Origin: Nautilus pompilius
Lineage: Eukaryota; Mollusca; Cephalopoda; Nautilida; Nautilidae
Direction: 5' to 3'
DNA: 64,000 bases
NCBI GenBank assembly: GCA_018389105.1
Contig: JACATO010000091.1
Span: forward strand, 186,001-250,000
The notes below the pieces were generated by a model. It saw only the letters and a list, made by a program, of their open reading frames with translations. It searched no databases and was not told the origin of the DNA. The position numbers and the translations under genes were made by a program. Every line of letters begins with the position of its first letter. The first letter of the stretch is position 1. This document shows, in pieces, positions 4,722-49,692 of the stretch.

Positions 4722-4904
4722 CTGAATATAAACACAGAGACATACGAGAATAAAAAAAAGTTTGGTTCAAATAAACATTAAATCAGCTTTAAAAAGAACA
4801 AATTCTGTCCGTCTGAATGTATACATTAATCAGTCTCTTGGAAGCTACTTAAAGTTTGCTGAAATGAAACTTGAGTTTGAGCAACAGGCATAAGAGTCAC
4901 TCAC

Positions 4905-6434: not shown

Positions 6435-6537
6435 TTTGTAACCACTATGTGGGTGATGACATCACGGTGCATGTAGCTTCGCTCGTATGATTCCCCAGAA
6501 GGAAGGTTCTCCAAGTAGACCCGCTCAAACTCCAAAA
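6435..6537 (-). CDS. PPWD1: PPWD1 coding exon 2
   Basis: It encodes [20 protein letters not shown] followed by [13 protein letters not shown], almost identical to the vertebrate block just before the first WD40 repeat. It is bounded by TTTTTGTCAG acceptor and AA|GTAAGT donor sequences. The phases (2 nt in, 2 nt out) match exon 1 and exon 3 exactly. Intron 1 is about 6.3 kb and holds the 39/40-bp minisatellite. Confidence 0.92.
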
Positions 6538-17308: not shown

Positions 17309-18700
17309 AGTAGCGTGTATGGCCACCCCTGGTCTCCACTACATTGTTGTATCTGCATTTCATACTGTTTATCAGACATCTGACGCAGTCTCGTGGCAGT
17401 GCATTCCACTTTTCTGTCAAGGCCTGATGTAGTTCCGGAATGGTCCCTTGAGCATGTGGTCACTGCATTAGGTACCTAGGACACTCATCCCAGACTTGAT
17501 CTGTTGGTTTTAGCTTAGGGCAATGAGCAAGCCACAGAAAACATCAGATAATGTAGGACTGTCCCTGCGTGGTGGGTTCTTGCACTATCAACCCACAATG
17601 TTGAACCTATTACTGTAAGTTCATACAACTGGCACAACAACAGGTCTAATGGCTGTAGCTCTGGTCGTTAGCAGTTCATCAGAAAGAGTCAGGTCACTTT
17701 TGTGGTCATCCGTTACAGCATCCCAAACTAGAATACTGCTGCCCTAGAGCAGTTCGTCTCCTACCTGGTATAGCCATCGTTACATTGGTTTGGATGTTGC
17801 TGATGATTGTAGATGACCATCAGTAAGGTGAAGGGTGAATTTACTCATCAGAGAAGCAAATGCAGCTCCAGTCTGCAAATTACAGTGCAAAGGTGTTCTA
17901 CTATACTCTACTGCAGTCTCATCCCATCATCATCGTGAATAGGCTACCTCTGCTGAAAATTACCGGATTATTTTTAATAATCTGGACAGAGATATGAATC
18001 CAGTGATCCTTCTGCAACTGGCTCTGAAGAAGACAAGCTATGAAAGTGCAGTTAAGTTGAGTCCAATGGGTGATACCACTGTGGTGCCTCCTACCAGGTC
18101 TTTTGTGAACTGAACTGGTCTCTCTGCAGCTCTGCTATAGTTGGCTGATAACGCTCATTGTTACATCAAGTTCAGCAGCCACACCTGCCTACAGCCTAGG
18201 TATCTATTGCTTGCCTCCAAACACTGCTCACGTGTAAGTCATTGTTGAATCAAAGCTGACTTTTATGGGTACAACCACACAGAAACGAGGAGTCAAAATC
18301 CCAACACTCAAAATGGCAGAACTGCCTCCTGACTCCAGCTTCGGATTGACAAACCGACGAAGGACCAAGCAGAAGTTTCTGTAATGGCCTCAGCATCTTA
18401 CCCAAAAATATAAACCATGAAGCAGTAAATGGAAAAATGTCCACTACTGAGGGAACAGTGGAGTCCAAATAAGCAAAGTTTACATCATACCTATCTTTTG
18501 TGTATTAATTTACCTGTATAATTAATTTAGAGACCAGCAGATGGCTGAGTGACTGAGTGTGGTCCTCACTGGAAACTGTCTTGCTTTGGAGAACCTCCCA
18601 TAGCTTGGGTTTCTCTTGGGTGCTGCAGTTTCTTCCAGCCGATAAAGAGAAAGGTTCCTGTAAGGACTTTTAATCAAGCAAGTTCCTCTCTCAGCTACTG
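17309..18700 (-). mobile_element. Decayed Tc1-like element, copy A
   Basis: The minus strand reads as a broken Tc1/mariner transposase. Near 18,100-18,200 a helix-turn-helix remnant (GVAAELDVTMSVISQL) precedes KRPGRRHHSGI. At the end (17,309-17,520) PTDQVWDECPRYLMQ, a stop, then PELHQALTEKWNALP and VVETRGGHTRY match the family's C-terminus (qvWDe…aLqeeWn.iP…rGGhTRY). Several stops interrupt it. About 1.4 kb is nearly identical to 36,827-38,231. Clear terminal inverted repeats were not found. Confidence 0.8.
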
Positions 18701-25402: not shown

Positions 25403-25529
25403 CGAGGTCTTTGGAGCCTCGCTCTGAAGCCCTGCCATCAGCAAAGTTTATCCCATCAGACCCAAGTTGCTGTTTCATTTTGCAGATTTTCCTTTCTAAC
25501 TTGTCAATCTGTTTCTGTTTCCTCAGCCA
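25403..25529 (-). CDS. Repeat/coiled-coil gene, exon 7 (last located)
   Basis: It encodes WLRKQKQIDKLERKICKMKQ, then QLGSDGINFADGRASERGSKDL. The first half keeps the charged heptad-like pattern of the preceding exons; the second half is serine/glycine-rich. Acceptor TTTCTCAG is followed by the phase-0 TGG expected from exon 6. A strong donor (CTCG|GTAAGT) implies another exon downstream that I did not find. Without splicing, the frame would stop nine codons later at 25,374-25,376. Confidence 0.7.
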
Positions 25530-26238
25530 CTGAGAAAGGAAAATTGAATCGTTTTTAAATCATCTATTCCGAAAAGTACTGGCCCTTTTGTTTTGCTGAT
25601 GATGATCCTGCTTTGTCTTTTCTGTGCAATCTGAAGCAAACTTCTCCTAGCCAATATCAGAGCAACATTTCCACGATGGCCTGCTACAGAAGCCAACACA
25701 CCGGAATGGGCATCGTCAGTCATACTTACAGACTGGGGGTGCGAGACCAGCTCAAGCCACTCGGATGCCTTGAAAACAGAAATGTCCGCTACAGCAGATC
25801 CTCTGAAATACAGCGATGCTTCGCACTAAAATGGTACAGGGTTAAAGCCTAAAACGATGGTGATGGAGAAAGGTCACAGGAGCACGGTTTGGTTAGTTTC
25901 TATTAGATGTCTAGATGTGTGAACTAACTTTATTTTCTGTACGTCCTCCTAACGTTTTGTCGGTTTGTGTTTGGGCAATAATTTTCCAATCAGGACTCTG
26001 TATCGGTGCATGCACACAGGGGCACGCCGCCCTTGGCCTTTCTAACTGCTGTGCTATCGATACGTGAGACACCCGAGGTAAAACCAGGTTTCACACTGAT
26101 TCCGTTGTTTGCATTCCCTGGTTGGTTCATAAACTGACAATTCAGGTGATGTTAAGAAGTCGGCAACTAGGAAAGTGGAGTCACTTGCTAGAAACTTTAT
26201 TTCTTAGCTATGACAGCAAATCAGCCTCAGGACAGGAT

Positions 26239-26241
<3 letters not shown>

Positions 26242-26271
<30 letters not shown>
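26242..26271. repeat. (GT)n microsatellite
   Basis: About fifteen uninterrupted GT dinucleotides, in non-coding sequence just upstream (minus-strand sense) of exon 7 of the repeat/coiled-coil gene. Confidence 0.93.
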
Positions 26272-26274
<3 letters not shown>

Positions 26275-27949
26275 ATCTGGTGGAATAAAAAAGAGAGAAA
26301 TTGTGAAAATGAGTTTACCTATGTAACAAAGGTGCGTGTTCATCCCACTCAAGAGAAGTGTCGCCTCCGAATAAAATGACTGATATGTTAAGATAGCAAG
26401 TAAATGGAATAACTAATTTTGAGGCCCAAAAACTGCAGCACAATTAAATGGCAGAGAGAGAGAGAGAGAGAAATGTGTTTCTACAAGAAGATGCTTAGTC
26501 CCGCTGAACTAAATAGACTTATGACAGCTGCCATCAGGGCCTGCTAATAAAACTGAAATGCTCCTGTGAGCAAAATTACAGGTAAACTAACTGACGGGAA
26601 AATGGAAGTTGCTGCGGTTAGATAAATCAGAATTTGAGATGTTTGACTGAAAGCGCATTGTGTGTTCAATTATCCAAGCATCTGTTATTTCCGTCCCGGT
26701 TCAGCTGCCTTCAAACATGAGGAAGATAGGAACAGGCCAAATGTGACGGGTTTTTAAAGAGTTGCTGAGTTGTCATTCCCTGGGTGGCCAGTCCCATTAT
26801 CAGGGCCTGTTTTGGTGAGAAAATAAAATTAGAGGAACAATGTATATAGAGCAGATCCAAAAAAATCCTCCAAGCGTCATTTACTGGTGGAAGTCTCTCT
26901 TTTTCAGGTGTTCGTTCTGCAATATGTGATGGTCGCACTGACAGGGAGGGATAGTTCCTTACAAAAACCCTGTTTTGGTCACCTGACTGCTGCCTAATGA
27001 ACTTAATGGGAAATGAAATTCACAGAAGTACAAAATCATTGAAGCAACTTGGTGAGACAACTTCGGCAATTCATCCCTATGACTGAAATACCCTAATACC
27101 TGATGTAACCATAAATCTGACCACTACCCGGCCACTCAGTACCGATGACTCTTTTGGAGATGGGAATGGGAAAAGATTCTCCAAGATGATGAAAGTTCAT
27201 CTCTGTAGGTGGTGGTGAAAATGACTCTGAACTGAAAGAATAAATAAAATTGTCTTCTGATTATGATTTCATTGCACAGATATCTGGAGGTAATTCCCCT
27301 TTGAAAAAGTGATAAATAATTGGATGTCATTTGCACCTGAGCAAGGATCTGTTCTCTCAGCTGACAGCACAACGTCAATGGTGGATCTCTACCATCAGCA
27401 TCTGTTCATAAAAAAAAAAGTTTTGTGTAAGGAACTCACCAAGGTTTTTTAAAAATCAAATTCATGAAGAGAATTGGTTGTAAACAAAGTAAGAAAGAGC
27501 CATATACAATTGAAAGTAGATTTTAAAAACTATCACCCAAAAGATGGGGCACAGTTCCACAAACTCCTGATCAATCTTCATCCACATGCATTTCATTTTT
27601 TTTGTCTTTCTGACGAAGCCATCCAGTTAACAGTATATGAAACAAAATAACAGGAATAAAGTTTGTTTACTTAGAAAATGAACCAGATGATGCAAATAAA
27701 GTTACATTTATTTACATGTGGGAAACTTGTCATTAGAAACATCTGAAACTAATAGGTGATCAGGTAGGAAAAGAAACTGAAGAGTATTCCAATGTAACAC
27801 TGCACGGAACTATACACAAATAATAAATAGATTATATAGAAAGTATGCATTCAGTGGTATTACTAACAAGTTCACTCTCCTACTTACATTTGATTATCTG
27901 TTTACCAATATATCTGCCCAAATACGAACATCATAGGTGTAACATGTGT

Positions 27950-28330
27950 GCAATTATTCGGTAATGTGTGTACAGTAAACTGCTCAAAAGGTCCTCTCAA
28001 TTTTTGGTGGGAGTATCTGTTGTATCGTGCAGTGTTTATAGATGTAACACATATCGAGTTATCACTGATGACCTGCTCCAGATTTTCCTACAAATTTTCA
28101 GGTATTCCTTTAATTGCTGCTGAGATTCATCTTGGTTGTTTGGCTCTTATTTGTTTATCAAGATGTTCCCATGGGACTCGGTGGATTCTAGGGAGGCTGC
28201 TGATCCATTCCACATTTTTCCAAGCTGGCATTATTCTGGATATGGTGAATTTGTTGGCAGATCTCTTGACTGGATAATATATAAGCATGAGTGTATTCTG
28301 AAGGATGGACATCTAAGAGGTGAAACTTAA
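27950..28330 (-). mobile_element. Tc1-like transposase fragment
   Basis: On the minus strand, IHRVPWEHLDKQIRAKQPR resembles the Tc1 segment (SPDLNPIEHLWEHLDRQIR…) that follows the last catalytic acidic region. The sequence around it is frameshifted and full of stops. This family differs from the two long Tc1 relics in the window. It sits in an intron of the repeat/coiled-coil gene. Confidence 0.6.
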
Positions 28331-29238
28331 ATATCAATCAATGACTGCAAATCAGAGTCTGATTAACTGTGCCATTTCATGGCACCGATGATGGTCAGGT
28401 TTGTAAATTATTCTTATAGAAATTTTTATAAGTTATAAATATGTTTCTCTTCTGGTTGATTAGTGAGAGATTTACATAATGGTATGGATGGAATTCTAGG
28501 AAAACCTTGAATCAAACACGTACAGATGATACTGGCAATGAAGATGCTGGCGCTAATGAGATTTTAATTTTCTTCTTTCCAGTTGTTAGAAAAAAATTGT
28601 TAACACATCAGTGCTAAGATATCTTAGAAACAAATGCTGGTTAGCGGCATTCTTGGTAAAATCAGCAGTGCTGCAAGACTGGCGATGCTTTTTCCTCTGG
28701 CGCTACAGTTCTTCACAATGTCGATTTAGGCGAACAACACCTTCGGTGCAGCGTTGACCAAGGCAATGTTTACTGTTGCAATAAGAACGGTGCCAAAGTA
28801 CTGAAGAGTTCCGAATTGTTTACACTTATTTCCAAAAAAATATCCTGCTACTATATAATGACTGTGAAATTAATTAAAACTATTGTTGAGTTGTTTTATT
28901 AGTTATTACTAACCGAATCCAATGATGAGGGAGGTATCATTGACATGTTATTTTAGGACGGTACCAATAACGTCTGGTTTTGATCAGACTATCAATGGGT
29001 CAAAAGCTTTCTAAAAAAAATACCAAAATCATCTTTTTTTCTTTCTAAAATGTCAGGGTTTTAAACTTCTTTCTATCTACCTTTAATGATGACCAGTAAA
29101 AACTTAAAGATAATTTTTTTCCAATGTACTTTCATGAAATTGAATTGAAATATAGAAAGTACTGTAGATTTAGTTCTTAAAGCAAGCATTGTGTGTTTTT
29201 TTCTAAAATTATTCTATGTGCTAACACAAGCCAAAAAG

Positions 29239-29582
29239 CTTACCATATTTTTCAGGTTATGAGTCTATGTGAAGTATAAGTCAAATAGGTCAATTTTCCA
29301 AGCCGTCATTCATATATAAGTCAAAGTCGATAGTACAATCGTAAACCGAAGACAACGTGGGCCTCCCAGATCAACAGAGATCTAAGGGAGGTAACTGAAT
29401 CTGAGTCAGTATGCACCCACACCATGCTCATATAATCATACATAAATTTCCCAAAGTACTAAAGGATCCCATGTTCCCAGTATCATGATTTCATCCATAT
29501 GTAAGTCGGAATGGAATATAAGTCGATGGTCGGGCCTTTTTAGGGAAAAAGTATCGACTTACATGCTGAAAAATACGGTAAG
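29239..29582. mobile_element. MITE-like element with imperfect terminal inverted repeats
   Basis: The left end, CTTACCATATTTTTCAGGTT, and the reverse complement of the right end, CTTACCGTATTTTTCAGCAT, are inverted repeats. Both continue into a TAAGTC/TAAGTCG motif that recurs inside (TATAAGTC and TGTAAGTC). At 344 bp with no ORF it fits a non-autonomous DNA element, resembling the CCGTATTTTTC…TAAGTCG ends of many animal elements. The target-site duplication is unclear. Confidence 0.6.
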
Positions 29583-29887
29583 TAAAATGGTCATACCATT
29601 GGAAAACTATTGCAATATTCTGATCAAAACTGATTTGTGAAACTTATTAATTATTTGTGACCACTTTAGGAACATCTTGTGAATATTAAATGCATTTTCC
29701 ATTTTAACTGCTGTTAGGAAGGAATTCTTAAAAGTCAAATTCTCATCTAGCATTGAATGAGAAGCATCTCCACTCCACAATTATAAGGTATTACTGTGTG
29801 TGACATACTACTCACATAGCTCTGTCTTCTGCTGTACATACCGCTATTGAAAACAGTCTTCAACATGATTATCCTGTCTTCCCTCAC

Positions 29888-29956
29888 CTCATGCACCTTA
29901 GCCTTGGCAGTTTTCAGCTGTAGTTTCTGTTTGGCAGATCTCTCAGCCCAATTTCC
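29888..29956 (-). CDS. Repeat/coiled-coil gene, exon 6
   Basis: A 69-nt phase 0-0 exon encoding GNWAERSAKQKLQLKTAKAK and VHE. It lies between TTTCTTACTCAG and GTGAGG. Both flanking junctions keep the frame (…VILK|GNWAE… and …KVHE|WLRKQ…). Confidence 0.72.
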
Positions 29957-31982
29957 CTGAGTAAGAAAGATTATTTTAAGTTAATAAATTAGCTTTTCAA
30001 ATAATTTTAAAAAAAAATAATTAAAAATTGAATATAATGAAAATTGGGTAACAGATTTTCTGCAACATCTTCATCTATCAGCCCACAAAGGTGACTGTCC
30101 TGTAGTAGCCATTTTGTAATTATTATGTGTATAGGCTTGTAGCCAACAACTGACTAACAGCAGCATCATATGTCATCAGCCATGAAGTTGGAGTCTTTGG
30201 AAGCTGGAGTGAGTGATTAGGTGAAGAAATTCCCACAATGCAATGTTGCAGAATTCAATGATGCTCAGCTCTGATAGAAAGCTCCCAAATTTGTTTACAT
30301 ACAAGGAAAAAAATGGCAGAAAGACAAAAAGAACAAAGTCTCATGAAAATGCAGTACTCTGTGCCTCACATTGTGGAAACCATGTACAAACTGTGGTATT
30401 ATTTACTATTAACAAGCTGACAGAGAGGGTCATCTCCATGTCTAATTGTTTGTTGTTTATCATGTTTTTTTGTAGCAATGCATTATGGGAACATTTTGAT
30501 AGCATCAGGGGAAAGAAACCATTTTAGATTTTATGTCCCTTTACTTTAAGATTATGAAATCATGGAAGACAAAATCATGATGAGTGAAATAATTTTAGCT
30601 GTAATTAAAATGTCTCACTCTTAACTGGAACATTACCAAGGTGAGAAAGAGAAGGTGCATGACACTAAAATCTGTTAAAAGCATGAAACTTCTTGATGCT
30701 TTCTGGTTTTGGCTGACCTAACAAATCTACCAAAAATCCATAGTAGAACTCTTCACTTTTAGATGTGACTGGTTTTGGAAGAAAAGTGAAAATAAATGGT
30801 GCTAGTGACCTACACCAAACTGAGCCATTCCCAACTTCTGAACCCTCAATCACTGCAGGCAAGTTTAGAGTTTTCAAATGTCTTGTATTTTAGATTTTAG
30901 AAACTGTATCTTATAGTGGCATTTCCCAGGATTCCTTATTTTTTTTTAATATTATGGCTTAAAAGTACACTATCTACCTTTTTAATGGAGCAAAGGATTG
31001 TAAACTGGAGTCAGGCAGTGTCAGTCTGCTGCATACAGTGGTGTGCTCACATGTTTTTCTTGGAGGTGTATCTAAAGAATTTTTGGAAAATGCAACCAAC
31101 TTGGATTTCATGAATCAGCCATTGATTTTTCAGTAAACCCCATTATTAGCAAACTCATGTTTTTTGTCACCATATAGTAAACTTCAGCATTTGTCAAGTC
31201 CTTAAAAGTGCAAGAACTTGTAAATGTAAATGAATTACAAGAAGGATTCCATGGCAGCTTGCATGTCATTTCACAAAATGAAAATCTGAGTGATGGTCTT
31301 AAGAGGGTTGGCACTTTCAAGGAGTGCAGGGTTAAAACTATGCCCAACATGGTGAAAATAGCACCCTATTTTTAAAGTTTGCTGCTAGGATCTAATGTAT
31401 TTGCAAAGAGAACTTGTTCACTGTTGGAAGTAGGCAGAAAACAGGAACCGCTGTTCACCAGACTTAATCAAAAGCAAACTCTAAGTAACTATTAACTTGT
31501 TATGACTTCTTTTTTCGCTACATCCAAATCCAAAAGGATGCCAATCTCCTTAGGAAAACAAACAGACTAAAAAGTAAGTCATTTATTGATCGTTCGTGTA
31601 ATTTTTAACAGCATTATAAAATGTTTCCGGCCGAGTCACGCGGATATTGGCTGAAGATTTCAATTTTGACAACTTGAGATCATTTTAGTTACTGTTGGTA
31701 AGGACGAGCAACTATTGAACCTGCTGGGCGTACCTTTAAAACAAGGATTCTGTTTTGCTATTATTTGGAAGCAATTGTTTTATATCTGTTTATGCCCATC
31801 TAATCTGAATATAGGATGAGTTTGTTGGGTTTTAGGTTGCGTTGGCTGCTAAGGTCATTTTACTGCTATGAATATAGGTCTACTAATGTTAAAGGTATCC
31901 TGTGGGGTTTTTTTTAATAAAACGTTGGCAATTCTTCCGCAATTGTAATACTTCTCAGATTCATAAGTAAACAAATACTCAC

Positions 31983-32062
31983 CTTCAGAATTACATTTTT
32001 CAATGTCAACTTTTCAATGGTAGAATTTCTTTCAGAGTTAATGTCTGTTAAAAGTGAAAGTT
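31983..32062 (-). CDS. Repeat/coiled-coil gene, exon 5
   Basis: It encodes (E)LSLLTDINSERNSTIEKLTL followed by KNVILK and ends at AAG|GTGAGT. Two AGs lie close together at the acceptor (CATCTTAGAG). Using the second gives the two-base lead that completes codon GAA with exon 4; the first would shift the frame into a stop. The acceptor is the weakest part of this model. Confidence 0.65.
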
Positions 32063-32375
32063 CTCTAAGATGATAGTGAGAATTGAAAAACAAAGTAAAC
32101 TTTCTAGGACATGCAGAATTCATCCACTTGTCTTCATCCTTTATGGATGGAGCCCCTTATCATCCTTTTAAGTTAAACTTTATTTCCCATATGACAGTGG
32201 TTAAATCAGTCCCATCTGTCTGCTGGAATTACTTCACTACTCCCTTCTTTTATTATCATACATCAAAGTCTGCAAGGGAGCGCATTTTGCGCTATCATCC
32301 TCTAGGAAACATTTGCCGATGCCCCGGGAGCCCAGCATTTGGGAATCTCTATTAGGATTCTTAATATTTCTTTTA

Positions 32376-32621
32376 GTTGTGCAAACAAGCGAGAGAACCT
32401 GAAGGAAATTCACATGGCCAGCTAGTAAAGAGGGGACAGAAGGAACCCTGCCATGGAGTTGTGCAAACAAGCGAGAGAACCTGAAGGAAATTCACATGGC
32501 CAGCTAGTAAAGAGGGGACAGAAGGAACCCTGCCATGGAGTTGTGCAAACAAGCGAGAGAACCTGAAGGAAATTCACATGGCCAGCTAGTAAAGAGGGGA
32601 CAGAAGGAACCCTGCCATGGA
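32376..32621. repeat. Three perfect 82-bp tandem copies
   Basis: The unit beginning GTTGTGCAAACAAGCGAGAG occurs at 32,376, 32,458 and 32,540, and a fourth start is present at 32,622. The copies look identical, implying very recent expansion. They lie in an intron of the repeat/coiled-coil gene. The frames through them (…GRVPSVPSLLAGHVNF…) are not considered coding. Confidence 0.95.
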
Positions 32622-32948
32622 GTTGTGCCAAACCAGGTTTGGCCTTTGTGGTAATGAAGCTCAGGACAACGACTTTGGATGGAAATCTATTAAACCAATC
32701 ACTTTACTGACTAGTGCGATAAATTATTTACATTCACTATTTAAGTACATTTTATTGTAGGTACCCATAATTTTGACTTGTTTCACGATGACCTGGGTCA
32801 TTGACATTCAGCTTTGTCAACTCCACAGACCAGGCAGGAATAGCTTTCTTCTCAGTATATATGCATGAATGGCTGGCCATCCCTTTTATTTTCCTGCTTG
32901 ACAGAGGGAAAGAACTACACTAATAAAATGCTAACTCCTGGAACTAAC

Positions 32949-33095
32949 CTGTTAGCTCTTCAATTTTCTTTTTCAGCAACTCTCTTAGTTCTTTTTCTAG
33001 CAGCTCCAAGTTTTCCAGATCATCTATTTCATACAGATAGTCAGATACAATATCCTCTTCTTCCTCCACTTCTTTTTCCATCTGTAAAATTATCC
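32949..33095 (-). CDS. Repeat/coiled-coil gene, exon 4
   Basis: It encodes (G)IILQMEKEVEEEEDIVSDYL, then YEIDDLENLELLEKELRELL and KKKIEELT. It is strongly acidic, then shows leucine/glutamate/lysine heptads typical of a coiled coil. The acceptor is CTCTTTACAG at 33,096-33,098; the nearer ATTTTACAG would give the wrong phase. The donor is ACAG|GTTAGT. Length 147 nt, phases 2-in and 1-out, consistent with both neighbours. Confidence 0.78.
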
Positions 33096-33900
33096 CTGTA
33101 AAGAGATTTATGCACAATAGGTAGCTGAGAGCTCTGCTTACCTGCCGGTCAAACAACAGGCAGTCATATCGATCAATTTTTAGTAGATGCCATGGTCTGA
33201 CCTGGTAAATCAATTAAATCCTGAAGAATTTTCTCTACTTTTTACTATCGGGGCGAAGTATAAATTAATATTTTATAGTGTGGGAATGTTATTTACTTGT
33301 CTCTAAATATGTGGACAAGTTATTTATTTTTCACAATTTTACTTGAGGCAAATTCAGATTTTATTTCTTTGCCGTGTGAGCAAACTTGTATTTCATCGCA
33401 AGATGCAAGAAAGTTGCATTCACTTTAAATGACTGATGCCATTTGGGTTGGTTTACTGTGCGGACGAGTTAAATCTGTTGGCATCTAATTATCTGGACAA
33501 GTTGGATTGAGATTTTAGGGGGTGTTTAATGTAGGCGGAAAGTTGATTTTTAGCTACAACTGTCTGGAGCAAACTGAGTGCAGATAACCGTGACTTTGTA
33601 TTTGATACAAGTATATACTGAGTGGTCTCAATAGTAGGTTAAACTCGCTATAGTGCTTATGATAATTTTCCTTTTGCATTCTTTTAGTAGACACAAGTTT
33701 CTGCTTTTGGATAACTTTGGAAAATTGTTTTGTTTTTATAATTGTATGTTCATCCTATCTACATGGAGGAAAAGTAATATTCTATCTATTTTGAATAATT
33801 TTGTCCTCATAACAGAAACATATAAGATCTATTTTGTGTATACAGTAAAATATAAAACTCCATTTATTTTTGTCAAAGGAGGCAATTGTTTTGTCTCATA

Positions 33901-34613
33901 TACAGGGTGTTCCAAAAGTCTTGGGCACATTTTGACAATGAATATCTCGGAAACTATTAAGGATATAAAAACGCATCTGGTAAATTCAGAAAGCTTGTAA
34001 TCTCAATTTTTACATGGAATGTTCAAAGATGTTCAATGTGAGCACCATTGGTCACACGACACACATCAAGCCTATAGTCCAATTCTTGCCAAACGCGTCC
34101 CAGCATTGCATTGTCAATGGTTGAAACAGCTTCTGTTATTCGTGCCTTCAGCTCATCCACGTCTCTGGGAATAGGGGGCACATATACCAATCCTTTCACA
34201 AATCCCCACAAAAAGAAATCGCATGGTGTGAGATCTGGAGATCTGGGTGGCCAGGACATGAGATCGTGATCATTCTGCCCAGACCTTCCAATCCATCTGT
34301 CTGGCAGTTTTATGTTCAGAAACTGTCTAACCCTGAGGCTCCAGTGTGGTGGCGCTCCATCCTGTTGGAAAATGAAGTCACCAGACTCTTTCTCACTCAA
34401 TTTATCCATTAACTAAAAAATCTGAAAATATATCTAAAAAAATCTTAATCTAAAAAATCTTAATATCTGAAAAGAATAAAAAAAAAATCAATAGCCTTAC
34501 AAAAAAATTAATGTAATTAGCTTTAAAATGACACAACTTTTATCTTACTACCATTCATAGTTAAATAGATATGGGGACTTCAAATGTGCCCAAGACTTTT
34601 GGAACACCCTGTA
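33901..34613 (-). mobile_element. Internally deleted mariner-like element with perfect 32-bp TIRs
   Basis: TACAGGGTGTTCCAAAAGTC and 12 further bases at 33,901-33,932 are the exact reverse complement of 34,582-34,613. The element is flanked on both sides by TA, the target duplication of Tc1/mariner elements. It is 713 bp long and retains only the C-terminal part of a transposase ORF. The perfect ends suggest recent insertion into an intron of the repeat/coiled-coil gene. Confidence 0.92.
34023..34409 (-). pseudogene. C-terminal transposase fragment of the mariner-like element
   Basis: A 128-codon open frame with DFIFQQDGAPPHW (second catalytic Asp) and MSWPPRSPDLTPCDFFLWG (third catalytic region), ending at VCRVTNGAHIEHL. 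The spacing between the last two catalytic Asp residues is about 46 by my count, long for mariners (34 in classic DD34D). The N-terminal DNA-binding domain and first Asp are missing, so the product cannot be an active transposase. The frame itself is intact. Confidence 0.85.
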
Positions 34614-34701
34614 TAATACAAAAGAAAGACATTTCTTCTTCCATTCTGTTGTGAGGGGCAATCTGCGTTTCTTTCCTTAAAACACTACCAAAAAAAATTA
34701 C

Positions 34702-34848
34702 CTTCCATTTTGTCACTTTTGGCCTTTATCATCCTAGCTTGAGCTTTATTTTCCTCTCGGATTTTCTTGGTGCATATAATTTTCTGTAACAAGATGTTGT
34801 TGGCCCTGGTTATATCAGACAGCTCGAAAGCCAGCTCCTCATGTGACT
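34702..34848 (-). CDS. Repeat/coiled-coil gene, exon 3
   Basis: It encodes (E)SHEELAFELSDITRANNILL, then QKIICTKKIREENKAQARMI and KAKSDKME: alternating charged and hydrophobic residues consistent with a helical coiled coil. Acceptor CACCTAG, donor GAAG|GTAATT. Length 147 nt with the same phases as exon 4, suggesting the two may descend from a duplicated module, though their sequences are not clearly alike. Confidence 0.75.
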
Positions 34849-36432
34849 CTAGGTGGTAATAAAGAATTTATATTGGCTGATATTAAAGCCATGGATATTG
34901 AAGAACAGAGTATTTCAGTTACCTCCCCCTAAGATAAATGTTTTTTTTAATATTCTGATAGGATGGCAATTGTTGCCAATTACATATTATTTTGAAATAT
35001 CTAAAGCTGTGAATGCATTCTATATCTGATTTGTATCTGCCAAGAATTTAGTAAACCTACCTACAATGCATTACTAGTGGTTCATTATCCCTGCCGGTTT
35101 GCTCCAAGCATACGGCTGTCAAATCAGCTTGGAAAATTAAGAAAACAAATTATAAAACTGTACTAGAAAAATATCATGCTAAAGAATTAATCTTGGATCT
35201 GAAGACTGACAAACATTTTACCAACTTCTACTCTTAGGCAAGCATCTGTTTATTGTAATGGATGTTGTATTATGGGAAGGTTTTCCAGCTCATTGGGAAA
35301 TAGAATCCAGAGTCAGATTAGATGCAAAGCCACTTTAAAAGTAAATTTGACGATTACTTTGGTAAATCAACAAATAAGTAGACAATTATTTATGACCAGT
35401 TTGCCAAAGATAGTTGCAACAATACACATTTAAAAAGAAAGAAAGAAATGTTGATTGAAACAGTTTTACAATGTAATGGACTTAATTTGCTTAGTTTGAT
35501 GCTACTATCAGACAATCAAGGTAAACTCCTCTTGGAAATTAAAACAGAATCCACACCTAAGACAAACAATATATAAATCTTGAAGTAAGAAAAATTTATT
35601 CTACTAAACCAAATCAAAGGTTATAATGCTAAAAGCAAGGAAAGTTCAAGGTTAAACTAATGTCCTACAAAATTTCACAACACAGAATCTTTTCCATCGA
35701 CTCCAAAAAAAAACTCTCAGCTGACAACAGAAAGGTTTTGGATTTTTTAAAGTAGCAGGTGAGCTGATAGCTGCACAACATTTGCAGCAGGGAATGATAC
35801 CAGAATCTAAAACTCTGAGGTATATATCGGCAATGTTCAAATTGTGAAGCTCGTGCAGATACCATCAATTAGTTCCTTCTGGCTTGATTAGAAACACTAC
35901 AAAACCAGAATTGCTGTTCTTCCATTGTAATGCCATCATCTAAATATGCTTCTAAAAATGGTTATGCTAACATCCCCTTGCTGGCACCAAAATGGGTTCA
36001 GTCTGGATGAATTAGAAATAATGATTACATAATAGTTACGTCCCTCTATCACAAACATTATATAAATGCATATTCAAATGCATCGTTGTTATGGTAATTT
36101 GTTCTTGTGATGGTATATGTGGTGGGGGGGGGGAATCTAACCATCTTTGCACTAAATCACTGGAACAGAAAAGAGACACTATCGGAAAGATGACACTGTG
36201 GAACCGCTGAAAATTGAAGGGTTGACATGGGGAGATAACTTGGATAAGAAAAAAGATTAACGAAACAGAGTATAGCAGAACACACTGTGTTGGTTGGCAC
36301 AAATGTTAAAATTGAGAGTAGTTCCACTCTAACTCAGAGCATCAAACCCCGACTTTCACAAGCAAATTTTTGCTTGTTTTTATTTCAATGGACGTTCGTT
36401 TTTGCTCTGTTACTCACAACTTTAACCCTCAC

Positions 36433-36564
36433 CTAGTAGCCTTGTTTTTGACGATTTGTTTCTGAAACATGAACAAGTCGCCGACCTTTGTTTCTTAAGT
36501 AGGATCTTGCTGCTGGATTTCCACACAGTGCTAGAGCGGCTGGGTGCTGGGTAGGTTTCGTCCA
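36433..36564 (-). CDS. Repeat/coiled-coil gene, exon 2
   Basis: It encodes (V)DETYPAPSRSSTVWKSSSKI, then LLKKQRSATCSCFRNKSSKT and RLL: a basic, serine-rich linker between the repeat domain and the coiled coil. Acceptor TTTTTAG, donor CTAG|GTGAGG. Phases 2-in and 1-out match exon 1 (ACA G) and exon 3 (AG TCA). Low complexity makes it the least convincing exon on its own, but both junctions fit. Confidence 0.62.
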   Translation of the reverse strand, partial: WTKPTQHPAALALCGNPAARSYLRNKGRRLVHVSETNRQKQGY

Positions 36565-36826
36565 CTAAAAACCATGATTAAATCAATAGTATAAGAGGCA
36601 TTGTCACAGATGTAAACATTTACACACACACATATGCTGATGAGTATAATGTGACACAGACCAAATTTATCGATGGTAGAACATTTGTACACAGTTCAAA
36701 ATTTACCATAAAGTCTGAGATATAGAGTTTTATTTAGTGGAATATCTGGACACTGCTGAATGTATTACTGATGTCATAATGACAAAGAATATTCACTATC
36801 TACACATTAATTTTGACATGAACATC

Positions 36827-38231
36827 AGTAGCGTGTTTGGCCACCCCTGGTCTCCACTAGATTGTTGTATCTGCATTTCATACTGTTTACCAGACATCTG
36901 ATGCAGTCTCGTGGCGGTGCATTCCACTTTTCCGTCAAGACCTGATGTAGTTCCGGAATGGTCCCTTGAGCAAGTGGTCACTGCATTAGGTACCTAGGAC
37001 ACTCATCCCAGACTTGATCTGTTGGTTTTAGCTTAGGGCAATGAGCAAGCCACAGAAAACATCAGATAATGTAGGACTGTCCCTGCGTGGTGGGTTCTTG
37101 CACTATCAGCCCACAATGTTGAACCTATTACTGTAAGTTCATACAACTGGCACAACAACAGGTCTAATGGCTGTAGCTCTGGTCGTTAGCAGTTCATCAG
37201 AAAGAGTCAGGTCACTTTTGTGGTCATCCGTTACAGCATCCCAAACTAGAATACTGCTGCCCTAGAGCAGTTCGTCTCCTACCTGGTATAGCCATCGTTA
37301 CATTGGTTTGGATGTTGCTGATGATTGTAGATGACCATCAGTAAGGTGAAGGGTGAATTTACTCATCAGAGAAGCAAATGCAGCTCCAGTCTGCAAATTA
37401 CAGTGCAAAGGTGTTCTACTATACTATACTGCAGTCTCATCCCATCATCATCATCATCATCATCATCATCGTGAATAGGCTACCTCTGCTGAAAATTACC
37501 GGATTATTTTTAATAATCTGGACAGAGATATGAATCCAGTGATCCTTCTGCAACTGTCTCTGAAGGAGACAAGCTATGAAAGTGCAGTTAAGTCGAGTCC
37601 AATGGGTAATACCACTGTGGTGCCTCCTACCAGGTCTTTTGTGAACTGAACTGGTCTCTCTGCAGCTCTGCTATAGTTGGCTGATAACGCTCATTGTTAC
37701 ATCAAGTTCAGCAGCCACACCTGCCTACAGCCTAGGTATCTATTGCTTGGCTCCAAACACTGCTCACGTGTAAGTCATTATTGAATCAAAGCTGACTTTT
37801 ATGGGTACAACCACACAGAAACGAGGAGCCAAAATCCCAACACTCAAAATGGCAGAACTGCCTCCTGACTCCAGCTTCAGATTGACAAACCGATGAAGGA
37901 CCAAGCAGAAGTTTCTGTAATGGCCTCAGCATCTTACCCAAAAATATAAACCATGAAGCAGTAAATGGAAAAATGTCCACTACTGAGTGAACAGTGGAGT
38001 CCAAATAAGCAAAGTTTACATCATACCTATCTTTTGTGTATTAATTTACCTGTATAATTAATTTAGAGACCAGCAGATGGCTGAGTGACTGAGTGTGGTC
38101 CTCACTGGAAACTGTCTTGCTTTGGAGAACCTCCCCTAGCTTGGGTTTCTCTTGGGTGCTGCAGTTTCTTCCAGCCGATAAAGAGAAAGGTTCCTGTAAG
38201 GACTTTTAATCAAGCAAGTTCCTCTCTCACC
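36827..38231 (-). mobile_element. Decayed Tc1-like element, copy B
   Basis: A near-identical partner of 17,309-18,700 in the same orientation, including the same internal stop after YLMQ in the transposase relic. It differs by scattered substitutions and an expanded (ATC)n tract at about 37,443-37,471. It lies in intron 1 of the repeat/coiled-coil gene. Shared stops show the element was already dead, or mobilised in trans, before the two copies separated. Confidence 0.85.
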
Positions 38232-38432
38232 TACCATGGGGAGTATAAGAATGTCTGGCCTCATAAAAATGGCATCTGGTTACAGAAATGATTGAAAGGG
38301 ATTTAACACTAGTGCTGGATGGTTGATAGTGGTAATTAATTTAAAGGAAATTTCATTTATTTAAAACTAACTTTAGTTTTCAACAATACCCTAGTTACCC
38401 TATTGAAGAAATTACAAACAAATTTCTACAAA

Positions 38433-39220
38433 GTAACTGTGCACCATTCTGTATGGCATTTAATTACATGTCATAACTGTGCACCATTCTGTATGGCATT
38501 TAATTACATGTCATAACTGTGTACCATTCTGTATGGCATTTAATTACATGCCATAACTGTGTACCACTCTGTATGGCATTTAATTACATGCCATAACTGT
38601 GCACCATTCTGTATGGCATTTAATTACATGTCATAACTGTGTACCATTCTGTATGGCATTTAATTACATGCCATAACTGTGCACCATTCTGTATGGCATT
38701 TAATTACATGTCATAACTGTGCACCATTCTGTATGGCATTTAATTACATGTCATAACTGTGCACCATTCTGTATGGCATTTAATTACATGTCATAACTGT
38801 GCTCCATTCTGTATGGCATTTAATTACATGCCATAACTGTGCACCATTCTGTATGGCATTTAATTACATGCCATAACTGTGCACCATTCTGTATGGCATT
38901 TAATTACATGTCATAACTGTGCACCATTCTGTATGGCATTTAATTACATGCCATAACTGTGCACCATTCTGTATGGCATTTAATTACATGTCATAACTGT
39001 GTACCATTCTGTATGGCATTTAATTACATGCCATAACCGTGCACCATTCTGTATGGCATTTAATTACATGTCATAACTGTGCACCATTCGGTATGACATT
39101 TAATTACATGCCATAACTGTGCACCATTCGGTATGACATTTAATTACATGCCATAACTGTGCACCATTCTGTATGGCATTCAGTTACTGGTCATAGCTGT
39201 GCATAGTTCTGTATATGATT
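38433..39220. repeat. 40-bp tandem repeat array
   Basis: About 19 units of 40 bp (TAACTGTGCACCATTCTGTA then TGGCATTTAATTACATG(T/C)CA) with very few differences: C/T at the end, GCACC/GTACC, and CGGTATGAC variants near the right edge. The last unit decays into unique sequence. It is located in intron 1 of the repeat/coiled-coil gene. Confidence 0.96.
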
Positions 39221-39988
39221 CTTCATGTGTCATGACTGTGCTGTATGGCTTTTAAATGGCTGATGAAATGACTCCATCTACTCTCAGGAGCTCAAAATCA
39301 CATGAGAATAATTAATTATTTGTTATGTAAACTTGGTATTTTTTTTTCAGAGAAATTAGTTTAATCTTGCATGCAGTGTTTTACATTTTTCTTATTTTAA
39401 CCTTTTGTTTTCATTACTATTACTGCTGACCTCCCCACTACATTAATGAAGTAGTTTGCACAATGATTGGTAATGGTCAACATGTTCTAATGTTTTGAAC
39501 CTCACACAAAACCTGTCTCATGGATTAGGAAACAGCTTTACAAAGATGGTGGCTGGTTCAACATCTGCTAGTAAGTTACTTTATGCTAATCAGTTTTTTT
39601 TTTTGAAAAAACATTAGAACCATTCCTAAATACCCACATGTATTTGGAACAATCCTTGTTCAATGCTGCTTTTGAAGACCATAGTGCCTCTGTTTCATGC
39701 GCTTTTAACCTGGTTAGTCTGTGAAGATTCTCTTTATCTACGTTTTTCTTTCCTAATTATTAAGAACTGTAGCTGGTTTTTGGAGATATTGACTGAAAGA
39801 GATATTTATGTATATTCTACATGGTACGTTTTTTCAGGAAGAAGACTATTTGCATATCAGACATGCACTAATTTTTAAACCTTCCTTATGATATGAATTT
39901 TGTTTAAAATGAAGATGTAATGTGGCTGCATACACTGCCATCTGATGGTTTATACCTAATATATTTACATGCTCCAGAAATAGCATAC

Positions 39989-41607
39989 CTGTGGGCTCCA
40001 TTTTAGTAGAAAACCTTTCCAAGACAAGTTCTTTGTCATTTTGCTCTTGGTTTTCCTCAAAAGATGTCTGGCATTGAAAGTTACTTTGTTCAACCTTTTT
40101 TGAAACTGTAGATACTTCATCAGAATGTTGAAAATTGCTTTGATCATCCCATTCTGGATATGATTGGAACAAAACCTGGTTAGCCATTTTTGAAAAGGGC
40201 TGGCTCTGAAAATTACTTTGTCCAGTGTGTTTTGGATGTGATTTATAAGTGACTCGGTTGATCGTTTTTAAAGACAAATTATTGCGTTGGATATCACTTT
40301 CATCAGCCTGCTTTGAATAAGACTGGTTAGAAACATGGTTGGGTATTTTTGAAGAACGCTGGCTTTGGAAACTGCTTTGAACTTCTTTTGGATGTGGTTG
40401 GTCAGAAAGTTCATCGCAAATTTGTGAAAAACGCTGGCTTTGAAAATTGCTTCGAACTTGTTTTGGATGTGGTTGGTCAGAAAGTTCATCGCAAATTTGT
40501 GAAAAACGCTGGCTTTGAAAATTGCTTCGAACTTGTTTTGGATGTGGTTGGTCAGAATGTTCTTTGTACATTTGTGAAAAACGCTGGCTTTGGAAATCGC
40601 TCTGAACTTGTTTTGGATACGGTTGGTCAGAAATTTGATCAGCTGTTTTTAAAGAAGAACGCTGGCTTTGGAAATCGCTCTGAACTTGTTTTAGATACGG
40701 TTGGTCAGAAACCTGATCAGCTGTTTTTAAAGAAGAACGCTGGCTTTGGAAATCGCTCTGAACTTGTTTTGGATACGGTTGGTCAGAAACCTGATCAGCT
40801 GTTTTTAAAGAAGAACGCTGGCTTTGGAAATCGCTCTGAACTTGTTTTGGATACGGTTGGTCAGAAACCTGATCAGCTGTTTTTAAAGAAGAACGCTGGC
40901 TTTGGAAATCGCTCTGAACTTGTTTTGGATATGGTTGGTCAAAAACCTGATCAGCTGTTTTTAAAGAAGAACGCTGGCTTTGGAAATCGCTCTGAACTTG
41001 TTTTAGATACGGTTGGTCAGAAACCTGATCAGCTGTTTTAAAAAGAACGCTGGCTTTGGAAATCGCTCTGAACTTGTTTTGGATACGGTTGGTCAGAAAC
41101 CTGATCAGCTGTTTTTAAAGAAGAACGCTGGCTTTGGAAATCGCTCTGAACTTGTTTTGGATACGGTTGGTCAGAAACCTGATCAGCTGTTTTTAAAGAA
41201 GAACGCTGGCTTTGGAAATCACTTTGATCAACCTGTTTCAGATATGGTTTATAGGAAGTATGGTGGACCATTCTAAAGGACACATGCTGATTTTGGAAAT
41301 CATTTTTATCAGTTTGTTTTGGGTATGATTGGTCAGCTATTTTTGAAGAATACTGACTATGAAAATCACTTTGATCAACCTGTTGTGGAGGTGTTTTAAT
41401 AGGAACGGAAACCTCTGTCTTTTTTATGCTCAGATTAAGGTTTTTAAAATTATTCTGATGACTCTGGTTTAAAAATGATTCCTGAGTCATTTTATCAACT
41501 GTATCTGTGTTGGTTTTCTGATCAAGAAATTGTAGAGATGAATTCATATCAACAATTTTCTGACCATTTACCTTAAAAAGAGAGTGCCTTTTGATCATGT
41601 CAGCCAT
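39989..41607 (-). CDS. Repeat/coiled-coil gene, exon 1: tandem-repeat domain (frameshifted)
   Basis: Large first coding exon of a gene I do not recognise. The ATG at 41,607 (MADMIKRHSLFKVNGQKIVD) has an in-frame TAG nine bases upstream. After a short unique N-terminus, degenerate then near-identical units of 25-26 residues follow, e.g. SDQPYPKQVQSDFQSQRSSL + KTADQV: hydrophilic, Q/S-rich, without cysteine. The exon ends …FSTKMEPT at CACAG|GTATGC. One unit near 41,036 lacks two bases, which stops the frame (…QRSF-stop); beyond it the second frame runs open to the donor. Allowing for those two bases, the exon is 540 codons plus one nucleotide, exactly the phase exon 2 needs. Six downstream exons add a basic linker and a charged, probable coiled-coil region. 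A cytoskeletal, ciliary or scaffold role is only a guess from the coiled coil. Confidence 0.68.
40379..41226. repeat. 75/78-bp coding tandem repeat
   Basis: The landmark GAACTTGTTTTGG (plus strand) recurs at 40,379, 40,454, 40,529 and 40,604 (75-bp steps), then at 40,682, 40,760, 40,838, 40,916, 40,994, 41,070, 41,148 (78-bp steps, except one 76-bp step). Both unit lengths are multiples of three, so frames stay open. Units on the right are nearly identical, which points to recent expansion or homogenisation. Confidence 0.93.
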
Positions 41608-43926: not shown

Positions 43927-44277
43927 TTATTCACAAAAGTGAAATTGACGTTTATACGATTTTCGCTTGTGAGCAACTTTCGGGCAGTCTCTCAAAAGGT
44001 TCCAGCAGTAGTCTGCCATCATGTGCTCATCCCATTTGCCTTGATACCTCTCTTCCATTGTTTTGATGTCTTGATGGAATCTCTCTCCTTGCTCCTCACT
44101 GTAATCACCAAGATTACCAGGAAATCTGTCGAGGTGGCTAAACAAGAAATGAACTTTGATGCTCACATTTGCCCCTAGTTTTTCGTATGCAGTAAGCATC
44201 TTACGGACCAATTGCTTGTAATTGTCAGCTTGTTGATTCCCAAAAAGTTTGTCACTACATCTGTGAAGGACACCCAA
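43927..44277 (-). pseudogene. Mobile-element ORF, C-terminal part
   Basis: Continues the preceding fragment in another frame: FGNQQADNYKQLVRKMLTAY, VHFLFSHLDRFPGNLGDYSE then EQGERFHQDIKTMEERYQGK and HMMADYCWNLLRD, ending KSYKRQFHFCE. The intervening bases read DFTNHMNMVELNAWVSFTDV in a third frame, so at least two frameshifts separate it from the N-terminal half. Confidence 0.65.
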
Positions 44278-44323
44278 GCATTTAACTCAACCATGTTCAT
44301 ATGATTAGTGAAGTCAGAATCCC

Positions 44324-44899
44324 TCATGAGCGTTCGAATCTGAGGTCCTCGAAGATGCCACCTTTAGCTTTTTCGATGGAAAGACCTGGAAATTGCCTGC
44401 ATATGTACTTGAAGCAATCCCCATCTTTGTTCAACGCCTTAACAAACTGCTTCATGAGCCCTAGTTTTATGTGCAATGGAGGGAAGATGATTCTATCCCT
44501 GGGTACCAAAGGCTCATTGATGACGTTGGCTGTGCCGACTTCGAGACTTTCTCGTTCTGGCCAGTTCTCCCTTCTCCAGTGCTGGATTCTTGCTCTGCTA
44601 TCCCACAAACAAAGAAAGCAGGGATACTTTGTGTACCCACTTTGCTGACCAAGCAGAAAATTCACCATTTTCAAGTCCACACAAATCAGCCATTTATGAG
44701 TGTTGTAATTTAGCTTTTCAAGAACAAATTGGATACCATCATACTCTTCTTTCATCTTGGTAGAATGGCCAAGTGGTACAGGAGCAAACTTATTGCCATT
44801 ATGCAAAAGTACAACTTTCAGAAAATTATTATTTACTGCTTCTATATTGAAGTATTTCAGGGAGAATTTTAGCAGTTTAGGCTTATTTGAGGCTATCAA
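44324..44899 (-). pseudogene. Mobile-element ORF, N-terminal part
   Basis: A 191-codon frame with GYTKYPCFLCLWDSRARIQH (a C-x2-C cluster with a following His), VPRDRIIFPPLHIKLGLMKQ, and FKYICRQFPGLSIEKAKGGIF. Related ORFs recur in many invertebrate genomes without an assigned function; the motif CFLCLWDSR is their hallmark. The frame ends early and continues, shifted, in the next segment. Confidence 0.65.
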
Positions 44900-45235
44900 T
44901 ATCTTCTAAACTAGAGCCAATCAGACAAAACCAATGTTATATTCGTAATCAGCGACCTTCAAAACCCCAGAAAACACTCCTAGATGGTCTGCCAAAGAAA
45001 AAAAATAAAAATTTGTTGACCAGTGTAATCAATCAATCTAATCCAAAACAACAGAGCAGAAACAAAACTTTCGCTTACCTCCCTTTACCGGAAACTGCCA
45101 AACACAGATGGCGCCGTGTGTCTTCTCTTGCTGTTGATAGATGAGCGACTGATTGTTTTATGTGTTTCTGCAGATGTTTCATTTTGGTTGAAAACACCTT
45201 TCGGTCGGACATAACAGCGGTAAGTATCCGCTAAT

Positions 45236-45930: not shown

Positions 45931-46600
45931 TTTTCATCGTTTATAGAGGGCACAGGTGTGTGTCTGTCTACCTACCTGGAGCAACCCTCACTCTTAGATG
46001 ACCCTCAGGGTTTCTATGCACAGTGTACTTCTGTAGATGGGCAGAGTGGGTAGGCAGATATTAGAAAGAGAAGTTGAAGAGGAAAAAACCAGATGCATAG
46101 GAAGTAACTCGTGAGGAATAACTGTAGGTCCCATGGAGAATGAGAGTTCCTTTTTCATCGTTTATAGAGGGCACAGGTGTCTGTCTGTCTACCTACCTGG
46201 AGCCACCCTCACTCTTAGATAACCCTCAGGGTTTCTATGCACAGTGTACTTCTGTAGATGGGCAGAGTGGGGTGGGTAGGCAGATATTAAAAAGAGAAGT
46301 TGAAGAGGAAAAAACCAGATGCATAGGAAGTAACTCATGAGGAATAACTGTAGGTCCCATGGAGAATGAGAGTTCCTTTTTCATCGTTTATAGAGGGCAC
46401 AGGTGTCTGTCTGTCTACCTACCTGGAGCCACCCTCACTCTTAGATGACCCTCAGGGTTTCTATGCACAGTGTACTTCTGTAGATGGGCAGAGTGGGTAG
46501 GCAGATATTAGAAAGAGAAGTTAAAGAGGAAAAAACCAGATGCATAGGAAGTAACTCATGAGGAATAACTGTAGGTCCCATGGAGAATGAGAGTTCCTTT
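45931..46600. repeat. Three ~221-225-bp tandem copies
   Basis: The unit starting TTTTCATCGTTTATAGAGGG occurs at 45,931, 46,152 and 46,377. Copies differ by a few substitutions and a 4-bp insertion (GGTGGGTAGG). The repeat ends near 46,600 at a T run. No coding sense was found. Confidence 0.92.
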
Positions 46601-48370
46601 TTTTTGATTCGATGGTTCTTCCATCTTATTTAGGGATGCAAAACGGTGAATTTAAGAACTAATCAAACTTGTGGATTGTAGCCTATTTTGCTTCCTGTTC
46701 AAAGGTCTGTTCTAGGATTTTTAGAAGTCGTCGTCTATGGGTTTTATTTCTTGGCATTTTAAAACGTTAACTCTAGCTGTGTCTGCTAGATGTGCGTACT
46801 TCAGCTTTATCTACTGCCTCACCCCGTGTGCATATAGGCCGAAATATTCTGAGAATGGCCGGTGCACCTTCACTTGTGTTTTTTTTATTTTTTTTTTTTA
46901 GAGTATAATAAAAATATTTAAATAACTTTTTTGTTGTAAGGGAAGAATGCAGGGTTAGGTAGTAAGTACCCAAGGTCAAGGTGTAGTGAACAGAGATAGT
47001 CCAACTTTTCAAACTGTTGATTAAATATGATTTTTTTTGTAATTCTGTCATTGTCTATCACACGAATGCTTGCAATATCCCGATACCCTGTTATTACGTC
47101 TTGATAATGACTTTTTGTGTTTTGCATACGTATATAGATTCTGAAATTCCAGATATTTTGGGTAAAAACCAAGCCAGGACGCAGTAGGTGCTACCCTTGT
47201 CGAGTATAAGGAACTGTTATCTCCAACTAAGTTCTTGAAAACGAAAAACTGTTGTTCTGCTGATCCAATCTTAATGTAGTTTTTATTTCAAATGCCACAT
47301 TAACTGTTTTAGATTTCTTTCTAGAAATCCCTCCTGCCCCACCCCTTTTTTTTTTTTTAAATTTGTGATTTAGTTTTCTTTTTTTAAAATTAATCTATAG
47401 AGTGATGTTAAAGTGATAGTGCATCATGTGCTGCCACTGAACATCGCGTATACATTTCCCATTATGAGGTCTTCTCAATTATTGATTTTGCAACAAAAAG
47501 GCGAATAATGGATGATCTGGTCTTTTTATTTAACTCCGCTTAGTCGCTTACCTTTCAGTAATTTGGCTACACGAACTCAACGAGCATTTTATGTCGTCCT
47601 ATGTTATAATAGAAGTCAGTTTTTCATCCGCTGGACCCCCCCTCTCTCTCTCTCTAATCTGTAATTAGTCGCACTGTTTGTCCAGTTGCGTGCCAATAAA
47701 TTCTGGATTTGAGAGGATTTGGCTAATTACAAAATTTCCCAAAATTGTATAGCATATTGTAAGGATTAAACATTTAAAAGAAAAGAAAAAAAAAAAAAAA
47801 ACAAAACTCTGAGACTCAAAGGGTATTGGAGACTTTATGTATAGTAAATCCTCTGTTATGCTTCCTTCAGCACTGGATGGGACATAAATTAGGGCTACAA
47901 CCCTTGCAGTGAAGTAAGTCCCCTAATTTTTTATAAAAATGATCAATGGAAACTTTCAAAATGAAATATAAATAAATATGCAATGAAATTTTAAAAAAAA
48001 ATTGAGGTATTCATTGAGAACAGCTTGCGGGGAAGATCTGTCGCCACATCGTTGGAATGTCACGTTTTACGAGAGTTTATGAAAAGGTAGATAAAAATAC
48101 CATTTCTTTTTTTAAAAAACTGATTCTCACAAGTATCCTGTTGCTTGTAAGGTTTGGCACAGAACCACGTGTATATAGCTGTTGACATAAACATGAAAGT
48201 AGCTATGAATTCTTTAAAATCAAAGACTAAGGAATTATCCCCAATGTTAAAGGTGGTGGCATTGCCATACTATTTCGAAGAGGACCTAGCAGGATTTTTT
48301 TAAAATTAAAATTCATGTTACAGTTTTTGATGCTTGACGACAGTCACATCAAAAGTGCAGGGCCATGTAC
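46601..48370. other. Gene-free interval
   Basis: AT-rich sequence with T/A homopolymers and a (CT)n stretch near 47,640. No exon or transposase homology was recognised on either strand. Confidence 0.45.
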
Positions 48371-48442: not shown

Positions 48443-49074
48443 TTAGTCTCCTTCAAAGTATTTGCCTTGGGAGTCTACACACTTCTGCCATCGTTCCTGC
48501 CACTGCTGGAAACATTTCTGGAAATCACTTTTTGGGATGCTGTAGAGCTGTGCCGTCGAATTTTGCTTAATGTCCTCTGTTGACTCAAATCTTCTCCCTT
48601 TGAGTGTTTTTTTTTTGGAGCTTTGGGAATAGCCAAAAGTCACACGGAGCCAAGTCTGGGGAGTAGGAAGTCTGACGAACAAGTGGTGTGTTATGCTTGG
48701 CGAGGAATGCTTGGATGATGTGGGTGGAATGAGCGAGTGCATTGTCATGGTGGAGTTGCCAGTTCTTTGCTGCCCACAGGTCGGGTCGTTTTCACCGCAC
48801 AGCTTCACAAAGGCGACGAAGAACCCTATTCTTTGTTAATTGTCTGACCTTGCGGTGCATATTCATGGTGCACAATACCTCTGTAGTCAAAAAAACAGAT
48901 CATCAGTTTAACATTGCTGCGCACCTGTCTTGCTTTCTTTGGTCTTGGCGAGGATGGATGCTTCCATTGGGATGATTGCAATTTTGTTTCAGGGTCATAG
49001 CCGTACACCCATGTCTCATCGCCGGTGATGATAGTGTTCATGAAGTTTTGATCTTGGCTAGCACACTCTAACAT
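48443..49074 (-). pseudogene. Mariner transposase catalytic region, frameshifted
   Basis: Two frames cover the catalytic core. At 48,826-49,074, ITGDETWVYGYDPETK holds the first catalytic Asp and is followed by SQWKHPSSPRPKKARQVRSN and YRGIVHHEYAPQGQTINKE. At 48,443-48,808 the C-terminus KGRRFESTEDIKQNSTAQL…WQKCVDSQGKYFEGD is in frame, while the HHDNA and SPDLAPCDF motifs lie in a neighbouring frame. Confidence 0.85.
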
Positions 49075-49372
49075 GTCCTGGGAGATTTCCTTTCTGCTGG
49101 TCAGACAGCAACTTTGGTACGAATTTGGCCGACACCCTCCTCATGCACAAATCTTCTGTTATAATTGACTGAACTGACCCATGGCTGATTCCAACTTCGG
49201 CAACAATCTCCTCAATAGTCACACGACGGTCTTCATAGACTATTCCTCGAACCTTTGCAATCATTTCGTCGTTTCTGCTAGTCGATGGTCTTCCACAACG
49301 TGGCTCACTGTACACTGAGGTGCGGCCATCTCTGAACCGGTTGTACCACTCCTTTATTTGTGTTTTTCCCAT
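49058..49372 (-). pseudogene. Mariner transposase fragment, helix-turn-helix region
   Basis: It contains GKTQIKEWYNRFRDGRTSV, RPSTSRNDEMIAKVRGIV, VTIEEIVAEVGISHGSVQSI and MRRVSAKFVPKLLSDQQK, the paired HTH region of mariner transposases that binds the terminal repeats. It continues, frameshifted, into the catalytic part below 49,074. Confidence 0.85.
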
Positions 49373-49692
49373 AGCATCATCTCCAAAGGCCTCTGAATCT
49401 TCTCGACAGTCTGGGCTTGCGTATCACCAAGTTTTGGCAGAATTAGAATTTGATACAGTATCTTTGCTCAATGCGTTGGTCATCTTGACTCAAAAAGAAG
49501 AAAAATCGCACGGCACTCTCTTCACGTCTGTACTCAACGCGTCACTGCGGGCGACTGGCGCCACCTACAGACACGAAAATTTTTGCACATGCTCAGGAAG
49601 GACGCGGCCACCTAATACCCATGCGGATTTTGCTCACGCATTATTATTTTGTTCAAACAAATTCAAGGTCGGATACTTTTTGACTTCAGCTC

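Follow-up and report, generated by a model that had tools for sequence, protein, structure and literature searches.

A candidate split gene of Nautilus pompilius with Q/S-rich tandem repeats and a predicted coiled coil

A 64,000-nucleotide stretch of Nautilus pompilius contig JACATO010000091.1 (the window) was found to carry, on its minus strand, a candidate gene in which an array of Q/S-rich tandem repeats is followed by a charged tail. We consider it about as probable as a coin toss (roughly 0.5) that this is a single-copy, poorly conserved cellular mollusc gene, coding for an oligomerising coiled-coil scaffold with disordered, multivalent repeat tails. The gene structure, the single detected copy, the repeats and the predicted coiled coil are computed results, and are described first.

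Gene structure and predicted protein

An earlier note on this DNA had proposed seven minus-strand segments joined by six splice-like junctions. All were recovered, each junction being GT-AG (39989/36564, 36433/34848, 34702/33095, 32949/32044, 31983/29956 and 29816/25529), and the proposed junction phases of 1,1,1,1,0,0 make the chain phase-compatible (Table 1). The same note let the gene end at a donor at 25403. This proved wrong, as the last exon continues to a TGA, followed about 100 nt further 3' by a possible polyadenylation signal. Onward splicing from 25403 was rejected, with 22/60 and 15/60 shuffles scoring at least as high as the real chains.

Table 1 Coordinates of the candidate gene and of repeated elements in the window.
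Feature	Position	Strand	Details
Exon 1	41607-39989	-	1619 nt; ATG at 41607 (context TTTAAAATGG); Q/S-rich repeats
Odd repeat unit (exon 1)	41061-40986	-	76 nt vs 78 nt in neighbours
Exon 1 donor	after 39989	-	CACAG/GTATGC (slash marks the cut)
Exon 2	36564-36433	-	132 nt; phase 1-1; basic linker; optional
Exon 3	34848-34702	-	147 nt; phase 1-1
Exon 4	33095-32949	-	147 nt; phase 1-1; acidic coiled coil
Exon 5	32044-31983	-	62 nt; phase 1-0
Exon 6	29956-29816	-	141 nt; phase 0-0
Exon 7, coding part	25529-25374	-	TGA at 25376-25374
AATAAA, possible polyadenylation signal	25277-25272	-	~100 nt 3' of TGA
Inverted-repeat transposon in intron 3, outside gene	33899-34615	+	34-bp perfect ends
40-bp-unit minisatellite in intron 1, outside gene	38434-39214	+	19.5 copies
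Second, different 40-bp-unit minisatellite	10434-12349		48.5 copies

The exon 5 donor has the top score of the 811 donors in the span. Exon 2 is doubtful, since its acceptor ranks only 271 among 952 AG sites although its donor ranks 4 among 811 GT sites; it can be skipped without loss of frame and is possibly a cassette. Exon 6 contains a second, in-frame donor after 29888, use of which drops 24 residues. The product would thus span approximately 740-800 residues, set by exon 2 use and by the choice of exon 6 donor.

The translation of exon 1 (18% Q, 16% S) is dominated by 18 repeat units, of which FQSQRSSLKTADQVSDQPYPKQVQSD is typical, with a core of QS[DN]FQSQ..S. The Q/S-rich part of about 540 residues described earlier was confirmed, whereas its units, given as 25/26 residues, measure 18-27 (the last was cut at 26 residues by our script). 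Seventeen of the 18 are in frame and differ by whole codons only. The remaining unit is the 76-nt one among 78-nt neighbours, which bears out the 2-bp deletion already suspected in exon 1 and breaks the reading frame as assembled. The original frame meets a stop at 41040, so that exon 1 is open for 187 codons in one frame and then for 332 codons in a second, up to the 39989 donor; the other five frames of both stretches hold 7-31 stops each. A simple gene finder proposed the 76-nt unit as an intron, which we judge unlikely. On the opposite strand, too, the repeats stay open, over 236 codons, yet an antisense reading was set aside, as the antisense frames of the two exon 1 stretches contain 7-19 stops each. 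Of 17 units, ten distinct ones were retained for comparison, in which variability is lowest at the second codon position (0.31 vs 0.45 and 0.44). With a pN/pS of 0.61, the units are under mild constraint only.

Exon 2 encodes 44 residues with a net charge of +8, and the 261-residue tail has a high content of K, E and L. Using a COILS-type score (window 28), a coiled coil was predicted at tail residues 79-155 with a probability of at least 0.9, and none in the repeats. Both the basic linker and the charged coiled coil of the earlier description are borne out by these values.

Codon usage was scored with a table built from 3578 codons of nine open reading frames in this genome, of which seven lie at kinase matches and two at haemocyanin matches; length-matched stop-free intron stretches served as the null. 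In exons 3, 4, 6 and 7 the true frame outscores the other five, with 4/62, 7/62, 5/65 and 3/53 null stretches, respectively, scoring as well. Exon 2 scores -0.4 and exon 5 scores -6.8, values matched or exceeded by 11/82 and 275/359 null ORFs, respectively, and neither is conspicuous. The two stretches of exon 1 score below background (-51.5 and -69.8 bits), which we attribute to their odd composition.

Copy number, surroundings and family searches

The 727.6-Mb assembly (2558 contigs) was searched at E <= 1 with the 261-residue tail and with the first 161 residues of exon 1. Each matched this locus only, among the best 12 and the best 9 candidates scored, respectively; more distant paralogues may have escaped a search of this sensitivity. 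Matches to the haemocyanin beta-sandwich family, the mollusc type of haemocyanin, form two clusters of seven in the same genome.

The transposon in intron 3 has a 129-aa transposase-like ORF without a Pfam match. It is present in at least 40 full-length copies (40 of 243 candidates scored), and the 99-100% identity of all 40 suggests a recent burst. Intron 1 contains, besides its minisatellite, one member of a pair of 1.4-kb copies (36802-38234 and 17285-18698) that are 97% identical and lie 19 kb apart. Elsewhere in the genome only fragments of this stretch were found among 40 of 216 candidates scored, and the pair therefore appears to have arisen when an old repeat was duplicated locally.

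Several other features of the window were noted. On the same strand as the candidate gene lie a TGF-beta domain exon (15298-15942, 62.2 bits), with BMP6 and BMP7 as nearest solved relatives by E-value and, to our eye, perhaps nodal-like, and a PPWD1 exon (6431-6706) identified by a PDB match (E 1.5e-12). Minus-strand ORFs at 4471-5169, with weak WD-repeat matches below cut-off, probably belong to the PPWD1 gene. A Mariner-type transposase extends over minus-strand ORFs in different frames at 48443-49423 (Transposase_1 above cut-off, Mos1 HTH just below). Two long minus-strand ORFs of 119 and 193 aa at 43927-44905 have a transposon-like look and no Pfam match, and a 221-bp tandem repeat occurs in three copies at 45931-46602. 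Neither an Rfam nor a tRNA scan gave a match in the window.

Family searches were in line with the earlier statement that no family of this layout is known, as profile searches of Pfam and NCBIfam matched none. For the tail, the best Pfam score was 16.6 bits (cut-off 25) and the best NCBIfam score 11.2 (cut-off 50); for the repeats, the corresponding values were 20.6 bits (cut-off 26) and 15.6 (cut-off 234.75). A sequence search of the PDB gave four matches, the best at E 0.32, which we take as chance. Queries with the tail, the full layout and exon 1 found no match in a protein database of uncertain mollusc coverage. Pattern scans with 332 residues of the repeats yielded 11 pattern matches and no relatives among prokaryote contigs and, in a single scan of the viral contigs of IMG/VR, one pattern match and no relatives. 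Among the literature matches listed, no title or abstract dealt with this gene.

Control searches and rival explanations

The exon chain was assessed with a splice-and-codon chain finder written for this analysis. With the start fixed at the exon 1 donor and in the right phase, the strictest setting gave a top chain of exons 3, 4, 5, short 6 and 7, with a score of 50.5; for the seven-exon version, which includes exon 2 and the long form of exon 6, the score is 39.5. At two looser settings other chains were favoured, via a transposase ORF. It is improbable that the locus is simply an open minisatellite accompanied by accidental ORFs with splice-like borders. None of 300 dinucleotide shuffles reached 39.5, the top one scoring 33.4, and the sense frame begins at an ATG and remains open across the diverged outer repeats. 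Real sequence makes a noisier control, and here chance fares better: of 111 unmasked plus-strand chains, 42 reach 39.5 and 30 reach 50.5. The antisense strand of the repeats probably contributes to these scores, and its openness itself suits an accidental origin. With tandem repeats and transposons cut out, 15/117 plus-strand chains still reach 39.5, but none reaches 50.5 (best 46.3). Unmasked, wrong phases at the exon 1 donor score 47.2-53.0 by way of a transposase ORF; after masking, the right phase comes out on top (50.5 vs 45.1-46.6). This speaks against a division into two genes, with exon 1 as a transcript of its own and exons 3-7 as a second gene, for a coiled-coil protein, that starts from a different first exon, as do the end of the Q/S-rich character at the 39989 donor and the lack of AATAAA or ATTAAA within 300 nt past the exon 1 read-through stop. 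Such a division, which we hold to be rather unlikely, would fit the weak acceptor of exon 2 and the selection of exons 4-7 under every phase forced at the exon 1 donor in the masked runs, which makes the tail independent of exon 1. It would also agree with an over-liberal, unconstrained run over the whole window, in which the locus was split into several gene models, one holding exon 1 with a 76-nt 'intron' among its repeats, another exon 3, and a third exons 4-6. The masked and unmasked controls together leave exons 3-7 as the firm, best-supported part of the gene, while the join of exon 1 to the tail, which we infer from phase and position, is favoured rather than proven.

The broken frame raises a different matter, as this copy may be inactive or the assembly may be wrong. 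The shifted frame and its early stop are what a decaying pseudogene of such a gene would display. We nevertheless regard decay as unlikely, as the 76-nt unit is the sole lesion seen in approximately 2.4 kb of coding sequence in which splice sites, stop codon and AATAAA are intact, and its neighbours are near-identical repeats, a setting prone to assembly errors. The assembly yielded one locus only and hence no second haplotype for comparison. An origin as part of a transposable element or viral insertion is highly improbable. Mobile or repeated elements do occupy the introns, but the exons have no Pfam transposase match, the tail and the start of exon 1 occur at one locus compared with at least 40 full-length copies of the intron 3 transposon, and the IMG/VR scan found no relative of the repeats.

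Interpretation and comparison with known systems

A single cellular gene remains our preferred reading, and from composition and layout we infer how its product might work. The approximately 540 residues of Q/S/K/D-rich repeats are probably disordered, and a short basic linker (exon 2, if used) would separate them from the charged region, within which the coiled coil is predicted to cover about 80 residues. The coiled coil could form dimers or higher oligomers, such that many repeat copies would be displayed per complex. Each repeat, by means of its F and Q/S core, may bind weakly to a partner or to other repeats, with the length of the array setting avidity. That this is a mollusc-restricted scaffold family not yet described, in which binding strength depends on how many copies a 78-bp coding minisatellite contains and splicing switches the exon 2 linker, is a tentative idea to which we give little credence. 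If transcribed, the locus is possibly a gene confined to one lineage, with a repeat array of potentially variable length, and its one short repeat unit could lead automated annotation to split it or to label it a pseudogene. For those working on molluscs it would be one more orphan gene, and no new principle is shown.

Among known proteins, the kinetochore scaffold KNL1/Spc105 has a coiled coil after its MELT array; its hallmarks are MELT repeats (M[ED][LIM][ST]), N-terminal PP1-docking SILK and RVSF motifs, and C-terminal RWD domains. The predicted Nautilus protein resembles it in having an array of short motifs followed by a coiled coil, and the mode of action proposed above is comparable to that of KNL1. 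The KNL1/Spc105 array is one of short MELT motifs whose copy number matters (PMC7292645). The likeness does not extend to the motifs, and a KNL1/Spc105 assignment was rejected: the predicted protein has no match to M[ED][LIM][ST], a single MEPT being the only approach to it, and, unlike KNL1/Spc105, none to [SG]ILK or to the RVxF pattern. No RWD domain was matched above the Pfam cut-off in the tail, a result to be read with the fact that Knl1_RWD_C is unmatched genome-wide too (E <= 0.1), so that the profile may not reach this species.

Multivalent partners of LC8 (dynein light chain) carry tandem TQT-type motifs, of which the predicted protein has none, and an LC8 partner reading was likewise dropped. 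SQ/TQ cluster domains, as found in ATM/ATR substrates, have at least three SQ/TQ within 100 residues. Here there are up to 7 per 100 residues, the total for exon 1 being 18 observed vs 19.0 expected from composition.

The suggestion in the earlier note that the gene is undescribed holds insofar as no family was matched, and is not supported for the layout as a new kind, as scaffolds commonly combine a coiled coil with tandem repeats that are disordered. The novelty is accordingly modest, and the locus has the look of an unremarkable animal gene yet to be characterised, not of a novel type of system. What sets it apart from known scaffold repeats is the core QS[DN]FQSQ..S, which matches no profile above cut-off; what it shares with the common scaffold class is the layout itself, a multivalent flexible part joined to an oligomerising rod.
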